Shown here piece after piece: positions 2,357-50,620 of a DNA stretch of 64,000 nt (its first letter is position 1; every line of letters starts with the position of its first letter). The position numbers and the translations under genes are program-made. The notes below the pieces were generated by a model. It had not been told where the DNA came from, did no database searches, and was given only the letters and a program-made list of their open reading frames with translations. The DNA comes from Mycoplasmatota bacterium. Its GTDB lineage: Bacteria; Bacillota_I; Bacilli_A; Acholeplasmatales; Acholeplasmataceae. The stretch covers positions 1-64,000 of the forward strand of contig JANKMU010000004.1 of NCBI GenBank assembly GCA_024650045.1. The letters are read 5' to 3'.

Positions 2357-2378
2357 TTTGAAGTTCAAAATATTTGAA
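2357..2378 (+). promoter_or_regulatory. FabT-like operator (overlapping palindromes)
   Basis: TTTGAAGTTCAAA (2357-2369) is a perfect palindrome that fits the TTTGA-N3-TCAAA pattern known for FabT boxes of streptococci. A second perfect palindrome, TTCAAA-ATA-TTTGAA (2364-2378), shares its right half and runs into the degV ribosome-binding site. Both lie downstream of the promoter. The gene pair behind it encodes a FabT-like repressor, so autoregulation is a reasonable inference. Confidence 0.6.
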
Positions 2379-2390
2379 GGAGAAAATAAA

Positions 2391-3242
2391 ATGAGTGAAA
2401 AAATTGGTCTAGTAGTATGTGGTAATTCAGGTGTTGATTATATGAAATTGGATTATCCAGTTAAATTAATCAGAGCAACATTGAATCTAGGTGGTAAAGA
2501 ATATGAAGATTACGTTGATATTCAAGCAAAAGAATTTTATGATGTTATAACAGCTAATCCTGATATTGACGTATCAACTTCGCAAACATCAACCGGAAAA
2601 ATAGCAAGTGTCTATGAAGAGTTGAAAGAAGAGGGATATACTGAAGTTATAGCTATTGTTATTTCTTCAAAATTAAGCGGAACATATCAAGGAGCAGTTT
2701 TAGCTAAAGATATGGTACCAGGTATTAACGTTTATGTTATTGACTCTAGAAGTGTTTCTTATGGAGAAGCATATTTAGTTTTAGAAGCTATAAAAATGAT
2801 TAAAAACGGTAGCAAAACTAGAGATATCATTGATAAATTAGAGAAAATAAGAGATAATATATATATCTATGTTCTCGTTGACACACTTAAGTATCTAGTT
2901 AAGAATGGTAGATTATCTGCTACGAGTGGATTTTTAGGTACATTATTAAAAATTAAACCTCTACTTCATGTACAAAGAGATGGCAGTTTGGTTCCTTTTG
3001 AAAAAATCAGAACCACTAGTAAAGCTCAAGCAAGACTGGTTGAAGTTATAAAACATGATATTGAAGGTAAAAATGTCGTAATGTTTATTGCTTACACAAA
3101 TAATGAAGAGAAAGCTAAAGAAATTAAGCAACAAATATTAGAAATTCGCCAAGATGTAACTGTAGAATTAGTCCCATTAACACCTGTAGTTGGTGCTCAT
3201 GCTGGTCCAGGTACACTAGGTGTAGGTTATATAGTATTATAA
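2391..3242 (+). CDS. DegV family fatty-acid-binding protein
   Basis: Predicted 283 aa from ATG 2391, which has AAGGAG 8 nt upstream; an in-frame start at 2358 would lie in the operator and lacks a site. DegV/FakB proteins bind a fatty acid and present it to the kinase FakA, which makes acyl phosphate for phospholipid synthesis. Visible motifs are TSQTSTG and SSKLSGTYQ (ligand-binding serines), DTLKYLVKNGRLS, and the C-terminal GAHAGPGTLG segment that closes the fatty-acid pocket. The first DSGxD motif is NSGVD here. The FabT-like regulator gene follows 16 nt downstream, suggesting a shared role in lipid homeostasis. No FakA is in the window. Confidence 0.9.
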   Translation: MSEKIGLVVCGNSGVDYMKLDYPVKLIRATLNLGGKEYEDYVDIQAKEFYDVITANPDIDVSTSQTSTGKIASVYEELKEEGYTEVIAIVISSKLSGTYQGAVLAKDMVPGINVYVIDSRSVSYGEAYLVLEAIKMIKNGSKTRDIIDKLEKIRDNIYIYVLVDTLKYLVKNGRLSATSGFLGTLLKIKPLLHVQRDGSLVPFEKIRTTSKAQARLVEVIKHDIEGKNVVMFIAYTNNEEKAKEIKQQILEIRQDVTVELVPLTPVVGAHAGPGTLGVGYIVL

Positions 3243-3258: not shown

Positions 3259-3696
3259 GTGGTTTCTCCAAAAGAAGTAATAAATGAATTATTAGTAGAT
3301 GTTTTTAATCAAATTTTAAGCATTGAGGCGGATGTTTTAAAAAAACGTGGTGTAAAAATATCCATGACAGAAGTTCATGTTTTAGAAGCAATTAGAAACA
3401 CCGAAATACCTACGATGGGAAATGTTGCGCAAAAATTAAGAGTTACATTGGGGACACTTACCACATCAATTAATGTTTTGGTTAGAAAAAATTATGTGTT
3501 TAGATATCGTGATGAAACGGATCGTAGAAAAGTTTATTTAAAACTAAATGAATCTGCTATAGACGTACTAAAAGTTCACGATGAATTTCATAATGAAATG
3601 GTTACATCGTTATTCAAAGACTTAGATTTAGAAAAAGATGAGGTGTTGATGAAGTCACTAGAGAACATAAGTCAATACTTTAAGCAAAGATACTAA
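3259..3696 (+). CDS. fabT: MarR family regulator, FabT-like
   Basis: Predicted 145 aa from GTG 3259, preceded by AAGGCGG. It is a winged-helix dimer of the MarR family. The recognition-helix stretch MVTLGT-like (RVTLGTLTTSINVLVRK) and wing RDETDRRKVYL closely resemble FabT, the repressor of fatty-acid synthesis genes that is activated by acyl-ACP in streptococci. It lies downstream of a DegV gene and behind a TTTGA-N3-TCAAA palindrome, which supports a lipid role. The symbol is given on similarity seen by eye and has not been confirmed by a search. Confidence 0.8.
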   Translation: MVSPKEVINELLVDVFNQILSIEADVLKKRGVKISMTEVHVLEAIRNTEIPTMGNVAQKLRVTLGTLTTSINVLVRKNYVFRYRDETDRRKVYLKLNESAIDVLKVHDEFHNEMVTSLFKDLDLEKDEVLMKSLENISQYFKQRY

Positions 3697-3716: not shown

Positions 3717-3742
3717 AAGCATCCATAGGATGCTTTTTTTTA
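3717..3742 (+). terminator. terminator after fabT-like gene
   Basis: Perfect stem AAGCATCC-ATA-GGATGCTT followed by T7. Confidence 0.9.
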
Positions 3743-3816
3743 TAAAAAAACCAAAATAGACTTTTATCTGATAAAAAAATATATTATAATAAGTTTACGT
3801 GTGTTTATTTATTCGT

Positions 3817-3885
3817 TCGATTTAAAAATCGATCATACAAATCTTGATTTATAAGTATATAAATATAACTAGTAAATTTTACTAG
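3817..3885 (+). promoter_or_regulatory. two palindromes in leader of Enzyme I-like gene
   Basis: TCGATTT-AA-AAATCGA (3817-3832) and CTAGTAAA-T-TTTACTAG (3869-3885) are perfect inverted repeats. They lie between a TATAAT (3785-3790) and the gene start at 3916. They could be operators or leader structures. No regulator is identified. Confidence 0.5.
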
Positions 3886-3915: not shown

Positions 3916-5649
3916 TTGTATACCATAGTTGATGATGTGAAATTACCTTGTAGAGTTACCCACAAGAAAGATTCGGTGGGTAAAGTTGTTTTGTTTGATG
4001 ATTTGTTAAATTCTGAGCATTACGCAGAAAAAGATCTCAAAATCATTTTTAAGGTCTTTTATCGAGAACAAGCAGATGAGTTTTTAAATGCCAGAATAAT
4101 TGAATTAGGTTGCAGTAATAACAAATCAAACCCATGTAGAGAATATTCTGAAGTTTTCGGATTTTTTGATTCTCAACAGCTTTCTGAAATTTTCAGAAGA
4201 AATGTTTTTGTAGATAGGATGAACTTTTTACAAGCTTTCAACAAGGCTCTAGATGAATTTTTACAAATAGCTAGACGTGATTCCTTTTATCCTTCTACAC
4301 GTGAAAAAATGGAGACACTAGAGTTTTTTAGAAAAAGATTATTGAGTCGTTTAGTAGGGATTATGTTTAGGCACAAAATTAATAGGATCAGTAATGATAT
4401 GATTGTAGTTGTAAATAGATTTCGTAAAGAATATTTTTTTAATCTCTCAAAATATGTTAAGGGTTTCATATGTAAAAAGTTTGAGGATTATGACTTGGCT
4501 AGACTTTATGCCAACGAGTATCGAATCTCTATTGCATTTCGTAACCATGAATTTATTGAAAATGAGACTGTTATCATAAATCAATCAAATAATGAAATCA
4601 TCCTTAAACCAAAAGCAGAGACGGTTTCTCTTTTTAAACAAAAAATGAGAGATAGTTTAGATTACCTTGCTCAGGGTCCGGGGAGAAGTTTGGGTTTAAT
4701 TAATCTTTTTACGAGTACCAATGATATTAGAGATATCAATGAAATTGTTAATTCTGATTGGTTTAGTGGAATAGTCACATTCAAAAGTGAGTTTTTATAT
4801 GCTGCTAAAGGAACAACGTCATCAATTGAAGAACTAACAAGTTTTTATGTGAAATTACTAGAAACTGTAGGGAGTAAAGAAATCTTTATAAATATACCAG
4901 ATTTTCGACCGGAAAATCCTGTTGATATTATTGAAGGTGAATATACGGATCTTGAAACGTATATGAAGTTTAATACTGTATTTAACGATAACATATCAGC
5001 AATCGCTCATGCAAGTTCTAATACAGGAAAAGTTGTTAATATTGTGGTACCGATGATTAGACTTAAAGATGAAATGAATAGTTGGAAAGATAATATCATA
5101 GATATATTCTCATATCTTGATTCACCAATACCTTTAATAGGAATGATGGTAGAAACAGAAACTACTTTTGAATATTTCGAAGATTTTAAATTACATGATT
5201 TTGCGATTATAGGAATGGATAACTTGATTGATGAATTAATGGATAATTATGATAGATATAGTGATATTGATTTCGAGGATTTTATGCTTGAATTAGGGAG
5301 TGATTTACGAGAATTACATCAACACTACAGAGCGCATTTAAGCAAAACGAGACATATTGTAAGCGGACATTGTTTAAAGAATCCCAAAATACTATTGAGA
5401 CTCATGAGATCGGGATTCAGAGAATTCTCAATTCCTGTTGATCATATGCCCGTTTCTGGAGAAGCGGTAAAATTTTATGCAGATACACGAGGTAATTATA
5501 TTGGGGTAGCTGCTGAAAGAAAAGGGAAAAGATTATTAAAAATGCAAATGGATGCGGAAAAAGAACAAAAAGAGAAAGAAGAAGAGGAAGAAAAACAAGA
5601 AGAACTTAGGAAGATTGAAGAACGCAAAAAAAAGTATAATATTAACTGA
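3916..5649 (+). CDS. degenerate PTS Enzyme I homologue (pseudoenzyme)
   Basis: Predicted 577 aa from TTG 3916, behind AAAGGAGA. The length matches Enzyme I, and the order of Enzyme I landmarks can be followed by hand: phosphohistidine domain about 157-235, then the PEP-binding barrel about 255-515. Barrel landmarks are SGIVTFKSEFLY (287-295), VPMIRLKDE, IGMMVETETT (408-416), FAIIGMDNL (429-437) and VSGHC (482-486). Catalytic residues of E. coli PtsI are mostly lost. The GGRTSH His189 region reads KFEDYDL, with no His between 154 and 211. Arg296 is Lys290, Arg332 is Asn326, Cys502 is Ser483 and Asn454-Asp455 is swapped to Asp-Asn. Glu413 and Arg447 are kept. A Lys/Glu-rich tail (548-574) follows. 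It probably cannot transfer phosphate; a regulatory or scaffold role is inference. Confidence 0.85.
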   Translation: MYTIVDDVKLPCRVTHKKDSVGKVVLFDDLLNSEHYAEKDLKIIFKVFYREQADEFLNARIIELGCSNNKSNPCREYSEVFGFFDSQQLSEIFRRNVFVDRMNFLQAFNKALDEFLQIARRDSFYPSTREKMETLEFFRKRLLSRLVGIMFRHKINRISNDMIVVVNRFRKEYFFNLSKYVKGFICKKFEDYDLARLYANEYRISIAFRNHEFIENETVIINQSNNEIILKPKAETVSLFKQKMRDSLDYLAQGPGRSLGLINLFTSTNDIRDINEIVNSDWFSGIVTFKSEFLYAAKGTTSSIEELTSFYVKLLETVGSKEIFINIPDFRPENPVDIIEGEYTDLETYMKFNTVFNDNISAIAHASSNTGKVVNIVVPMIRLKDEMNSWKDNIIDIFSYLDSPIPLIGMMVETETTFEYFEDFKLHDFAIIGMDNLIDELMDNYDRYSDIDFEDFMLELGSDLRELHQHYRAHLSKTRHIVSGHCLKNPKILLRLMRSGFREFSIPVDHMPVSGEAVKFYADTRGNYIGVAAERKGKRLLKMQMDAEKEQKEKEEEEEKQEELRKIEERKKKYNIN

Positions 5650-5769: not shown

Positions 5770-5895
5770 GCTCGTGTGTATACGAGAAGGCTGTGAAATG
5801 GAAGGTTGCTGACACACGGATAGCCGTTGTCTACGTGTTAGGTTTTTCTGTGGAGCAAGTCTATACAAGATTATAGGCGAAAGGAGCTATTAGAA
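5770..5895 (+). promoter_or_regulatory. structured 5' leader of rpsJ (S10 leader)
   Basis: An untranslated leader of about 125 nt with several complementary segments, for example CACACGGATAGCC...CTACGTGTTAGG. It is much more GC-rich than other spacers and recalls the structured leaders in front of rpsJ in Firmicutes, thought to serve autogenous ribosomal-protein control. The assignment to that class is by position and look only. Confidence 0.5.
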
Positions 5896-6204
5896 ATGGC
5901 AAAAGATGTAATTAAAATTCGTTTGAAGGCTTACGATCACAGATTGATTGATCAAGCTGCTAAAAAGATTGTAGAAAGTGCACTAAGAACTGGAGCAACA
6001 GTTCAAGGTCCAATTCCTCTTCCAACAGAAAAGGAAATATTTACGGTCTTACGTTCTCCTCACGTTAACAAAGATTCACGTGAACAATTCGAACGTAGAA
6101 CGCACAAAAGATTAATTCAAATTATAGATCCAAACCCAAAAACAATTAGTGCTTTGATGGATATTGATTTACCATCAGGTATCGACATTGTATTAAAAAA
6201 ATAA
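5896..6204 (+). CDS. rpsJ: 30S ribosomal protein S10
   Basis: 102 aa, the usual length. It begins [20 protein letters not shown] and has the S10 loop motif [14 protein letters not shown] near 52-65. Also known as NusE in transcription antitermination. First gene of the superoperon, behind AAAGGAG. Confidence 0.98.
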
Positions 6205-39504: not shown

Positions 39505-39514
39505 AAGATTATCA

Positions 39515-39722
39515 TAGGCAATGAGAAAAAGAGTAACCCTATTGAAGTGAGCAAAAGAGAGTTCATGGTTGGTGTAAATGAACCCTTCATATGGTGAACA
39601 TGATTTTCGAGCCTTTTGGCTGATATGTAGGCTAAAACGTATTCCGCGTTAAGGAGTAGAGTGCTAGCAATGCTAGAACTAAGGTGGTACCGCGATTATG
39701 TCGTCCTTAGAGTTTTTTAAGG
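39515..39722 (+). promoter_or_regulatory. T-box riboswitch, methionine type
   Basis: A leader of about 200 nt ending in the T-box AAGGTGGTACCGCG (39681-39694), whose TGG pairs with uncharged tRNA CCA. The following CGTCCTTAG can pair with CTAAGG to make the terminator before TTTTTT. The specifier is probably ATG at 39600-39602 in GAACATGA, fitting the downstream methionyl-tRNA synthetase. Uncharged tRNA-Met would allow read-through. Confidence 0.93.
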
Positions 39723-39755: not shown

Positions 39756-41321
39756 ATGGAAAAGAAGTATTATTTAACAACTGCAATTGCATATGCATCT
39801 GCTATTCCTCATATCGGGAATGTATATGAGGCTATTTTGGCTGACGCCATTGTTAGGTTTAAAAGACTAGAAGGATATGATGTCTTCTTTCAAACTGGAA
39901 CTGATGAACATGGACAAAAAATTGAGAGTAGAGCAAAAGATAATGAGCTATCTCCAAAATCTTACGTTGATCATATTGCATCTGAGATTAAACGTATCTA
40001 TGACAAAGTTGATATCAGCTATGATCAATTTGTTAGAACAACAGATGAACGACATGTGCAAGCTGTTCAGGCAATCTTTAAAAAACTATATGATCAAGGC
40101 GATATTTATTTAGGGGAATATGAAGGTTGGTATTCTGTTTCTGAAGAATCTTTTATTTTAGAAAAAGATATTATTGATGGAAAAACTGCAAATGGTGATA
40201 CCCCCGTATGGACTAAAGAAGCTGCATATTTCTTAAAACTATCTAAATACCAAGATCGTTTAGTCAAACATATTCAAGATAACCCTCAATTTATTGAGCC
40301 TGAATCAAGAAGAAATGAAATGATCCAAAATTTCTTAAAAGAACCTCTACCAGATCTATCGGTATCTAGAACATCTTTCAATTGGGGAATCCCTGTTGAA
40401 TTTGATGAAGGACATATTGTTTATGTTTGGATTGATGCATTAAGTAATTATATTACAGGTCTTAATTATCATCCAGATCAAGCACCATCATCAGAATTTA
40501 AAAAATATTGGCCTGCTGATGTCCACTTGATTGGTAAAGATATTTTAAGATTCCACACTATCTATTGGCCAATTATCTTAATGGCTTTAGGTTTAGAACT
40601 ACCAAAACAAGTTTTTGGTCATCCATGGATTTTAGTGAATAAAGGAAAGATGAGTAAATCGATTGGTAACGTTATGTATACTGATGATCTGATCAGATAT
40701 TTTGGTGTAGATACAGTACGTTATTATGTGCTACATGAAATTCCTTTTGCACAAGATGGTAACATTACTTATGAACTACTTATTGAAAGAAATAATAGTG
40801 ATCTTGCAAATACAATCGGAAATCTAGTGAATCGCACGATAGGTATGGCACACAAGTATCGGCAAGGTGTGGTAAAAAAAGTTATGTTAAATGAACCTTT
40901 TGAACTTAGTTTAAAAGAGAAAGCTCTCGAGGTGTTACCACAAATGAGAAACTTTATGGACGAACTTAAAGTCAGTGATGCACTAGAAGAAATCGTTAAA
41001 CTAGCACGAAGTGCCAATAAATATATTGATGTATCTGAACCGTGGGTTTTATTTAAGACAGAAGATAAACAGGAAATATTAGACCACGTCTTATATCAAT
41101 TATTAGAAACCATTAGATTTGTTGCTATATTATTACAACCTTTCATTCCAAATACATCAAACCGCATAGCTAAACAAATTGGTATGACTGATTTAAGTTT
41201 CGAATCATTAGAAACTTTTGGGAATTATGAAGCACAAACTTTAGGTAAGCCAGAAGTGTTATTTGAAAGATACGATGCTTTGAAAAAAATAGAAGAAATT
41301 CTAAAAGATCAAGATGAATAA
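39756..41321 (+). CDS. metG: methionyl-tRNA synthetase
   Basis: Predicted 521 aa. Class I HIGH motif variant AIPHIGN and KMSKS in GKMSKSIGN. The zinc-knuckle region after EGWY reads SVSEESFILEK and has no cysteine. The C-terminal tRNA-binding domain of the about 660-aa Bacillus enzyme is absent, as in small mollicute enzymes. Controlled by the T-box upstream. Confidence 0.96.
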   Translation: MEKKYYLTTAIAYASAIPHIGNVYEAILADAIVRFKRLEGYDVFFQTGTDEHGQKIESRAKDNELSPKSYVDHIASEIKRIYDKVDISYDQFVRTTDERHVQAVQAIFKKLYDQGDIYLGEYEGWYSVSEESFILEKDIIDGKTANGDTPVWTKEAAYFLKLSKYQDRLVKHIQDNPQFIEPESRRNEMIQNFLKEPLPDLSVSRTSFNWGIPVEFDEGHIVYVWIDALSNYITGLNYHPDQAPSSEFKKYWPADVHLIGKDILRFHTIYWPIILMALGLELPKQVFGHPWILVNKGKMSKSIGNVMYTDDLIRYFGVDTVRYYVLHEIPFAQDGNITYELLIERNNSDLANTIGNLVNRTIGMAHKYRQGVVKKVMLNEPFELSLKEKALEVLPQMRNFMDELKVSDALEEIVKLARSANKYIDVSEPWVLFKTEDKQEILDHVLYQLLETIRFVAILLQPFIPNTSNRIAKQIGMTDLSFESLETFGNYEAQTLGKPEVLFERYDALKKIEEILKDQDE

Positions 41322-49339: not shown

Positions 49340-50371
49340 ATGATGAATGTGAATCAAAAAATGCATAAACACATGATGAGTGGGATTTCTCCGATTATAC
49401 CTTTATTGGTTGTTGCGAGTATTTTCATGTTTTTGTTTATGAAATTGGACAATTTAAATATTCAAAGCAGTTTTTTAAATGAAATGATTAATGTCTTAAA
49501 TCAAGCAACTCAATGGATGTATATTTTAGTATTACCTGTATTTGCAGGATTTATTGCATATTCGATTGCAAATAAACCGGGAATTGTTCCTGGTTTAGTC
49601 GGTGGAGGTTTAGCTGTCTATGCAACTGGAATGATTGGTGCTTTAGTTGCTGGTTTCATTGCTGGATACTTGACTAAATATATACTTGTTTTGTTTAAAA
49701 ATATACCAAATACGCTAAAGGGATTATCAACAATGGTTGTTATTCCTGTTGTATCAGCTTTATTAGTTATGTTCTTTATGTTTTTATTTAACACAGGATT
49801 TTCTCAAATATTTAAAGATTTAGAACAAATATTAATTCAACTTGATTTAATATATGCGATATTGTTTGGATTGATATTTGGGATGATGATGGCAATAGAT
49901 ATGGGTGGACCTATTAATAAAATTGCATTTTTTATTGGAATTGTCTCAATATCACAGGGGAGATCAACAATGATTATGGCTTCTATTATGGCAAGTGGTA
50001 TGGTCCCACCTTTAAGTATTGCACTATTAACATTGATCAATAAAAGAAAATTCAATTACGAACAAATTCGTTTAGCTAAGAAAAACTGGGTAATGGGATT
50101 ATCTTTTATGACAGAAGGGGCAATACCGTTTGCAGCTGCAAATCCTAAAAAAGTAATGCCAGCAATTATTATTGGTAGTGCATTAGCTGGAGCACTTATT
50201 CCTTTATTTGGAACAACACTATCTGCACCTCATGGTGGTATACTTGTTTTATTTTTAATGACTAATTGGTGGGGGTTCCTGATTTCATTAGCGGCAGGTA
50301 CAATTATTGCCGCATTGCTGTTACTCATTTTACTTCCAACAGCACATGAAGAAGTGGCTATAAATAAATAA
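49340..50371 (+). CDS. PTS fructose-type EIIC permease
   Basis: Predicted 343 aa membrane protein. HMMSGISPIIPLLVVASI at the N terminus and MAIDMGGPINKIAFF (about 183-197) are hallmarks of fructose EIIC, as is MTEGAIPFAAANP. It is separate from EIIA and EIIB (42349-43109), with the whole mrp operon between them. ATG 49340 and 49343 and GTG 49349 are all possible starts; only a weak GAGATG-like site is seen. Confidence 0.92.
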   Translation: MMNVNQKMHKHMMSGISPIIPLLVVASIFMFLFMKLDNLNIQSSFLNEMINVLNQATQWMYILVLPVFAGFIAYSIANKPGIVPGLVGGGLAVYATGMIGALVAGFIAGYLTKYILVLFKNIPNTLKGLSTMVVIPVVSALLVMFFMFLFNTGFSQIFKDLEQILIQLDLIYAILFGLIFGMMMAIDMGGPINKIAFFIGIVSISQGRSTMIMASIMASGMVPPLSIALLTLINKRKFNYEQIRLAKKNWVMGLSFMTEGAIPFAAANPKKVMPAIIIGSALAGALIPLFGTTLSAPHGGILVLFLMTNWWGFLISLAAGTIIAALLLLILLPTAHEEVAINK

Positions 50372-50437: not shown

Positions 50438-50467
50438 TTTACATTCATCCTTTTATTTTGTTATAAT
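50438..50467 (+). promoter_or_regulatory. promoter of purine permease transcript
   Basis: TTTACA (50438-50443), an 18-nt spacer and TATAAT (50462-50467), shortly before the riboswitch. Confidence 0.75.
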
Positions 50468-50483
50468 GATGGAGTATTCAATG

Positions 50484-50552
50484 TATCGTATAATCGACCT
50501 GATGTGGAGGTCAAGTTTCTACCGTGAGCCCGTAAAATTCACGACTACGATA
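50484..50552 (+). promoter_or_regulatory. guanine-type purine riboswitch aptamer
   Basis: P1 TATCGTA/TACGATA. P2 GACCT/AGGTC with loop GATGTGG. Conserved J2/3 AGTTTCTACC. P3 CGTGA/TCACG with loop GCCCGTAAAAT. The specificity base in GACTACG is C (position 74), predicting guanine or hypoxanthine rather than adenine. A purine permease follows. Confidence 0.95.
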
Positions 50553-50620
50553 TGAAAACAGCTTTTTTTAATAATGTTTTCATATGTAGAAACCACAACT
50601 ATTTAGCGTGGTTTTTTTAT
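50551..50620 (+). terminator. riboswitch expression platform with terminator
   Basis: AACCAC (50591-50596) and GTGGTT (50608-50613) followed by T make an intrinsic terminator. GTAGAAAC (50586-50593) is complementary to GTTTCTAC in the aptamer (50515-50522), giving an antiterminator that excludes both aptamer and terminator. A further hairpin, ATATGAAAAC/GTTTTCATAT (50551-50583), shares bases with P1. Confidence 0.75.

Follow-up and report, generated by a model that had tools for sequence, protein, structure and literature searches.

The gene at positions 3916–5649 of the window, as we call the whole 64,000-nucleotide stretch of DNA analysed here, encodes a protein of 577 amino acids which is almost certainly derived from Enzyme I (EI) of the phosphotransferase system (PTS) and is devoid of the active site of EI. 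We favour the reading, to which we give a probability of about 60%, that the protein is an EI-descended pseudoenzyme which acts non-catalytically outside the PTS, as a scaffold or a ligand-responsive module. The scaffold or regulator role as such is put forward more tentatively.

The gene, the predicted fold and the active-site positions

The gene was assigned from its open reading frame and from Pfam, TIGR01417, AlphaFold and Foldseek results. The frame is intact, and the coordinates given for it in the original prediction are correct, as is the TTG start. Both the start codon and the ribosome-binding site are common to the window gene and its nearest relative, the two being 58% identical. 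Upstream lie the genes for a DegV-family protein (2358–3242) and a MarR-family regulator (3259–3696), which belong to a conserved neighbourhood and are, like the pseudoenzyme gene and the hairpin, promoter element, RNA leader and codons described below, on the forward strand. A 228-amino acid open reading frame beside the DegV gene (1613–2299) has no Pfam match and is found with 53–79% identity in many relatives. A terminator-like hairpin 3' of the MarR gene (3717–3735) makes a separate transcript of the pseudoenzyme gene likely. A probable promoter element and the palindromic leader that had been claimed could both be located. The sequence TATAAT at 3785–3790, found by eye, is probably the -10 box of a promoter that belongs to the gene itself, and it recurs upstream of the orthologue in the nearest relative (L005), and the imperfect palindrome CTAGTAAATTTTACTAG is present in the leader at 3869–3885; on comparison with L005, its CTAG arms are conserved and its middle is not. 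Downstream of the gene, an S10 ribosomal protein leader (5785–5880; Rfam RF03136, 39.9 bits against a gathering score of 35.1) is followed by rpsJ at 5896–6204.

Homology to EI over the full length of the protein, as originally predicted, was confirmed by searches with both sequence and structure. In a Pfam scan, PF02896, the domain with which PEP-utilising enzymes bind PEP, scored over its cut-off (E = 4e-8), and TIGR01417 matched residues 94–439 with 57.5 bits (E = 9e-16), a score that misses the equivalog cut-off of 341.7 bits by far. The best PDB chains by sequence match were EI structures. An AlphaFold model computed from 55 homologues had a mean pLDDT of 91.6 and a pTM of 0.87, and its best structural matches were complete EIs, including 2hwg, the structure with which a comparison had been suggested; Foldseek aligned it to full-length EI (2kx9, 2l5h and 2hwg) over about 576 columns at E of about 1e-20. 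Overall TM-scores against full-length EI were moderate (0.40–0.56), probably because the domains of EI shift relative to one another, and the single-domain EI barrel entries 6v9k and 2xz9 gave a target-normalised TM of 0.69. In the model, the three-part fold of EI is complete, with helical domain, phosphohistidine domain and PEP barrel. The charged C-terminal tail noted in the original prediction is present, and AlphaFold predicts it as a single long helix (residues 531–574); the motif TRGNYIGV and this charged helix make up a family-specific C-terminus, encoded at 5485–5646.

We scored residue changes on an alignment that included intermediate sequences and comprised 37 family members, 20 short EIs (described below) and 16 canonical EIs. 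The absence of a histidine from the phosphorylation site stood up to this analysis. Leu194 (codon at 4495–4497, placed by alignment with EI and short EI) takes the place of His189, the residue that is phosphorylated in EI, and histidine is kept there in 0/37 family members, as opposed to 19/20 short and 16/16 canonical EIs. The counts for Cys502, where the window protein has Ser483 (5362–5364), were identical: 0/37, 19/20 and 16/16. The alignment also upheld the proposed replacement of Arg296 by Lys290 (4783–4785) and of Arg332 by Asn326 (4891–4893), along with the reversed order of the Asn454-Asp455 pair, which is Asp435-Asn436 (5218–5223) in the window protein. Further changes are K340 to N334 and R358 to T344.

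Conservation across the family varied from column to column. Glu413 (5152–5154), the equivalent of Glu431, was conserved, with E in 26 and D in 7 of the 37 members. Lys290 was conserved only in part (13 K and 9 R in the Arg296 column), the Arg332 column has R in 14/37, and the Asn454 column has D in 24/37. Arg447 had been taken as the equivalent of Arg465, an assignment that we abandon: D446 aligns at this position, R447 is one residue off, and the Arg465 column has R in just two of the 37. The Gly503 column is retained in all 37.

Compared with PtsI (TIGR01417; 2hwg, 2hro, 2wqd), the family thus keeps the whole fold and the Glu431 and Gly503 positions, but it is without the phospho-histidine and Cys502, does not conserve the PEP arginines, scores far too low against TIGR01417, and has an added C-terminal motif and charged helix. 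Judged by the TIGR01417 cut-off, His189 and the residues of the PEP site, the window protein would not be a functional PTS Enzyme I, and catalysis of the EI reaction by this protein is very unlikely, since it has neither the residue that is phosphorylated nor the catalytic cysteine.

The S10 locus and the short Enzyme I

The family is widespread in Acholeplasmataceae, just upstream of the S10 operon. In the examined Acholeplasmataceae loci that extend far enough, the gene sits between the MarR gene and the S10 ribosomal operon, with the DegV gene further upstream. The MarR neighbour is 94% identical to that of Peloplasma aerotolerans (L063), and the window is close to that species, within Acholeplasmataceae. 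While neighbouring genes are mostly 80–99% identical to those of the window within the genus and its nearest relatives, the pseudoenzyme itself is only about 20–35% identical among relatives, 58% being reached in the nearest species. A first scan of genome contigs with the window protein itself gave no match, because the sequence diverges too fast; the named loci were recovered by searching with the conserved MarR neighbour. A single-sequence search found a homologue in 98 of the 160 genomes of the order, a set that includes some canonical and short EIs. When the whole class was searched with the profile of the family, the matches listed outside the order were frames of about 500–600 amino acids, which is ordinary EI length. 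The open reading frame at the locus in Acholeplasma laidlawii (L060) was recognised by neither Pfam nor NCBIfam, and profile comparison tied the Acholeplasma laidlawii group to the family (E = 3e-30). Among the loci collected, L079 (JAFGUR010000187.1) is a contig labelled Fusobacteriaceae that has the locus of Acholeplasmataceae and was probably assigned to the wrong bin, and L061 (contig C1 of G037) is a second S10-locus contig in G037 with a different gene copy, which suggests a mixed assembly.

Most relatives have a ROK-family glucokinase-like gene between the MarR gene and the pseudoenzyme gene, and this gene is absent from the locus of the window, as it is from that of Acholeplasma laidlawii and several more. 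A search for a typical ROK glucokinase across the window genome (G000, 1.89 Mb) gave just two weak ROK matches. Glucokinase has been reported absent from Peloplasma aerotolerans, although the species grows on glucose (PMC11122141).

The same position is held by a short EI of about 500 amino acids in a sister family, with Paracholeplasma vituli (L099, identical in sequence to L038) among its members. A short EI is also present at the locus in genome G142 (L205), which belongs to a second family; wherever the surroundings were read in further genomes of that family, the short EI is located elsewhere. At the locus, the glucokinase gene ends where the short EI gene starts, with or without an overlap. 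H189, R296, R332, E431, N454-D455, R465 and C502 are retained in 19 or 20 of 20 short EIs, which are probably active to judge from these residues, and the Arg358 position has Arg in 4/20 only. The short EI model also matches complete EI structures. In many of the genomes with a short EI, no EI above the TIGR01417 cut-off was found, so the short form is probably the sole EI there; HPr is present in nearly all of those sampled. Short EIs (L038, L036, L205 and others) are mostly without the NPFLGxR motif that contains Arg358 and without EI's C-terminal end, and they may in turn represent a variant of EI not yet described.

In the phylogenetic tree, the family came out as a single clade (100/100), separate from that of canonical EI, and the short EIs were placed between the two; when the tree was rooted on EI, the family and the short EI were in the same clade. 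The best profile match of the family was the short EI (E = 4e-51). These relationships, and the shared locus in Paracholeplasma and G142, indicate that the family shares common descent with the short EI of the sister families. The two differ in that the short EI has intact active-site residues and no charged tail, and the window protein is the reverse. That the gene arose by recent duplication of the host ptsI was ruled out, since canonical EIs are a separate clade. The short EI of genome G147, from a sister family, has lost the same active-site residues. A test of independent loss in G147 gave an AU p of 0.116; it is taxonomy and locus that make two separate active-site losses, one in the family and one in G147, likely.

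The PTS, the barrel pocket and selection

A canonical ptsI, which the original prediction had proposed to look for, is present in the window genome: a ptsI-ptsH pair lies on another contig, the ptsI frame being interrupted solely by a 10-N assembly gap. The window protein is therefore an additional EI homologue, and the idea that it could be the only EI of the cell was ruled out. The genome also encodes pyruvate phosphate dikinase. Most Acholeplasmataceae genomes likewise carry a canonical ptsI.

An EI homologue of this kind could regulate the PTS, by binding HPr or forming mixed dimers with canonical EI and thereby modulating phosphate flow non-catalytically. Such a function would be in keeping with the modelled retention of the whole EI fold, including the HPr-binding helical domain and the dimerising barrel, and with the occurrence, in the window genome and most relatives, of two or three HPr proteins alongside canonical EI. 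We nevertheless consider it unlikely. The helical domain of EI binds HPr, yet just 0–7% of the core family keep the columns of this domain that do not vary in EI and short EI. Moreover, degenerate copies exist where neither HPr nor canonical EI was detected, one at the locus in G147 and another as a 364-amino acid gene remnant beside S10 in G016, this evidence coming from a sister-family copy and a shortened copy and from no full-length family members. The loss of the helical-domain columns and the degenerate copies in these two genomes make a PTS context unlikely, and they argue against the sensing of HPr that had been proposed; the alternative proposal, sensing of PEP, finds no support, given the lack of conservation of the PEP-phosphate arginines in the family.

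Some other features of the window genome were noted. On contig C39, an HPr-like gene (L144, 1498–1743) is flanked by a pgk-XRE regulator pair and by tpiA, and its site reads LHAALAA as against LHARPA, the histidine being kept and the following Arg-Pro lost. The window itself encodes a PTS EIIC family protein at 49340–50371 (59.6 bits), and a purine riboswitch follows this gene at 50466–50567. A T-box leader is found at 39512–39711, upstream of a 521-amino acid open reading frame (39756–41321).

The protein may instead have acquired a new catalytic activity, for example a metal-dependent lyase or hydrolase reaction taking place at the barrel mouth, with the metal coordinated by Glu413 and Asp435. 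An E or a D occupies the Glu413 position in 33/37 members, the acidic pair Glu413 and Asp435/436 is retained in 28/37, there is almost no variation at Pro379 and Gly484, which lie where barrel strands end, and other PEP/pyruvate barrel enzymes are among the Foldseek matches. However, Gly484 is the sole strictly invariant pocket residue, the others varying widely between close relatives, and most pocket residues are gone from the Acholeplasma group in the alignment, so we regard this possibility too as improbable. Since the acidic pair is kept in those 28 members, some ligand binding or chemistry may remain.

That the gene is functionless and decaying towards loss is very improbable, for although it diverges fast, survives as short remnants in L133, L054 and L226, and is gone from the locus in Acholeplasma equifetale (L090), most family members have long open frames, the nearest relative shares the start codon, ribosome-binding site and -10 box, new conserved residues are found in the family, and dN/dS is low. 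The closest pair (L014/L020, 92% identical) gave a dN/dS of 0.07 at a dS of 0.54, and more distant pairs gave 0.12–0.18, with dS near saturation. The original prediction that this is not a decaying copy agrees with these values and with a loss that is common to the orthologues, and purifying selection maintains the pseudoenzyme. Conserved residues that set the family apart from the enzymes are F169, E172, G299, P328, F330, W390, H468, L487, F501, G526 and G530. The tail opens with a TRGKYxGV-like motif, in which 29 of the 37 members have RG or KG, and then continues for a few to about 90 residues, varying by member. A sequencing or frameshift artefact was ruled out by the long open frames in many species and the low dN/dS. 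Selection has preserved the protein across the whole family of these wall-less bacteria, and it therefore probably has some other job.

A proposed role outside the PTS

Our preferred reading, a non-catalytic pseudoenzyme outside the PTS, can be laid out as a series of steps. The ancestor of the order would have encoded a short, probably active EI between the glucokinase gene and the S10 operon, and this copy would have been inherited vertically into Acholeplasmataceae. There it would have lost the phospho-histidine and the catalytic cysteine, and the PEP-phosphate arginines would no longer have been conserved, while the whole three-part EI fold was retained and family-specific conserved residues and the charged tail were gained. 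The barrel would now serve as a scaffold or as a module that responds to a ligand. Its Glu413/Asp435 site may still hold a metal or a carboxylate, although no more than 28 of the 37 members keep the acidic pair, and a partner would be bound by the TRGKYxGV motif together with the charged helix. That an EI pseudoenzyme was recruited outside the PTS across the whole family, whether as a metabolite-responsive scaffold or as a new enzyme, and that the loss was repeated in G147, has in our estimate slightly less than an even chance of being correct.

An additional EI paralogue with a regulatory rather than a transport role is known in EI-Ntr (PtsP), which forms a phosphorylation chain together with NPr and EIIA-Ntr and whose N-terminal domain is a GAF domain (PMC2405797). 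The window protein resembles EI-Ntr in being an extra EI paralogue besides canonical EI; unlike EI-Ntr, it has no GAF domain detectable in the Pfam scan and has lost the catalytic residues. A literature search for an EI pseudoenzyme, or for the gene in Acholeplasma, returned nothing relevant in the papers searched, and we found none among them that describes a full-length PTS Enzyme I without its active site.

Members of the family could be labelled as PTS Enzyme I in annotations although they are without its defining residues. Intact and dead forms occupy the same locus in sister families, and the steps from enzyme to pseudoenzyme can therefore be traced and tested. Since the cultivable Acholeplasma laidlawii carries an orthologue, the function of the protein is also open to experiment.
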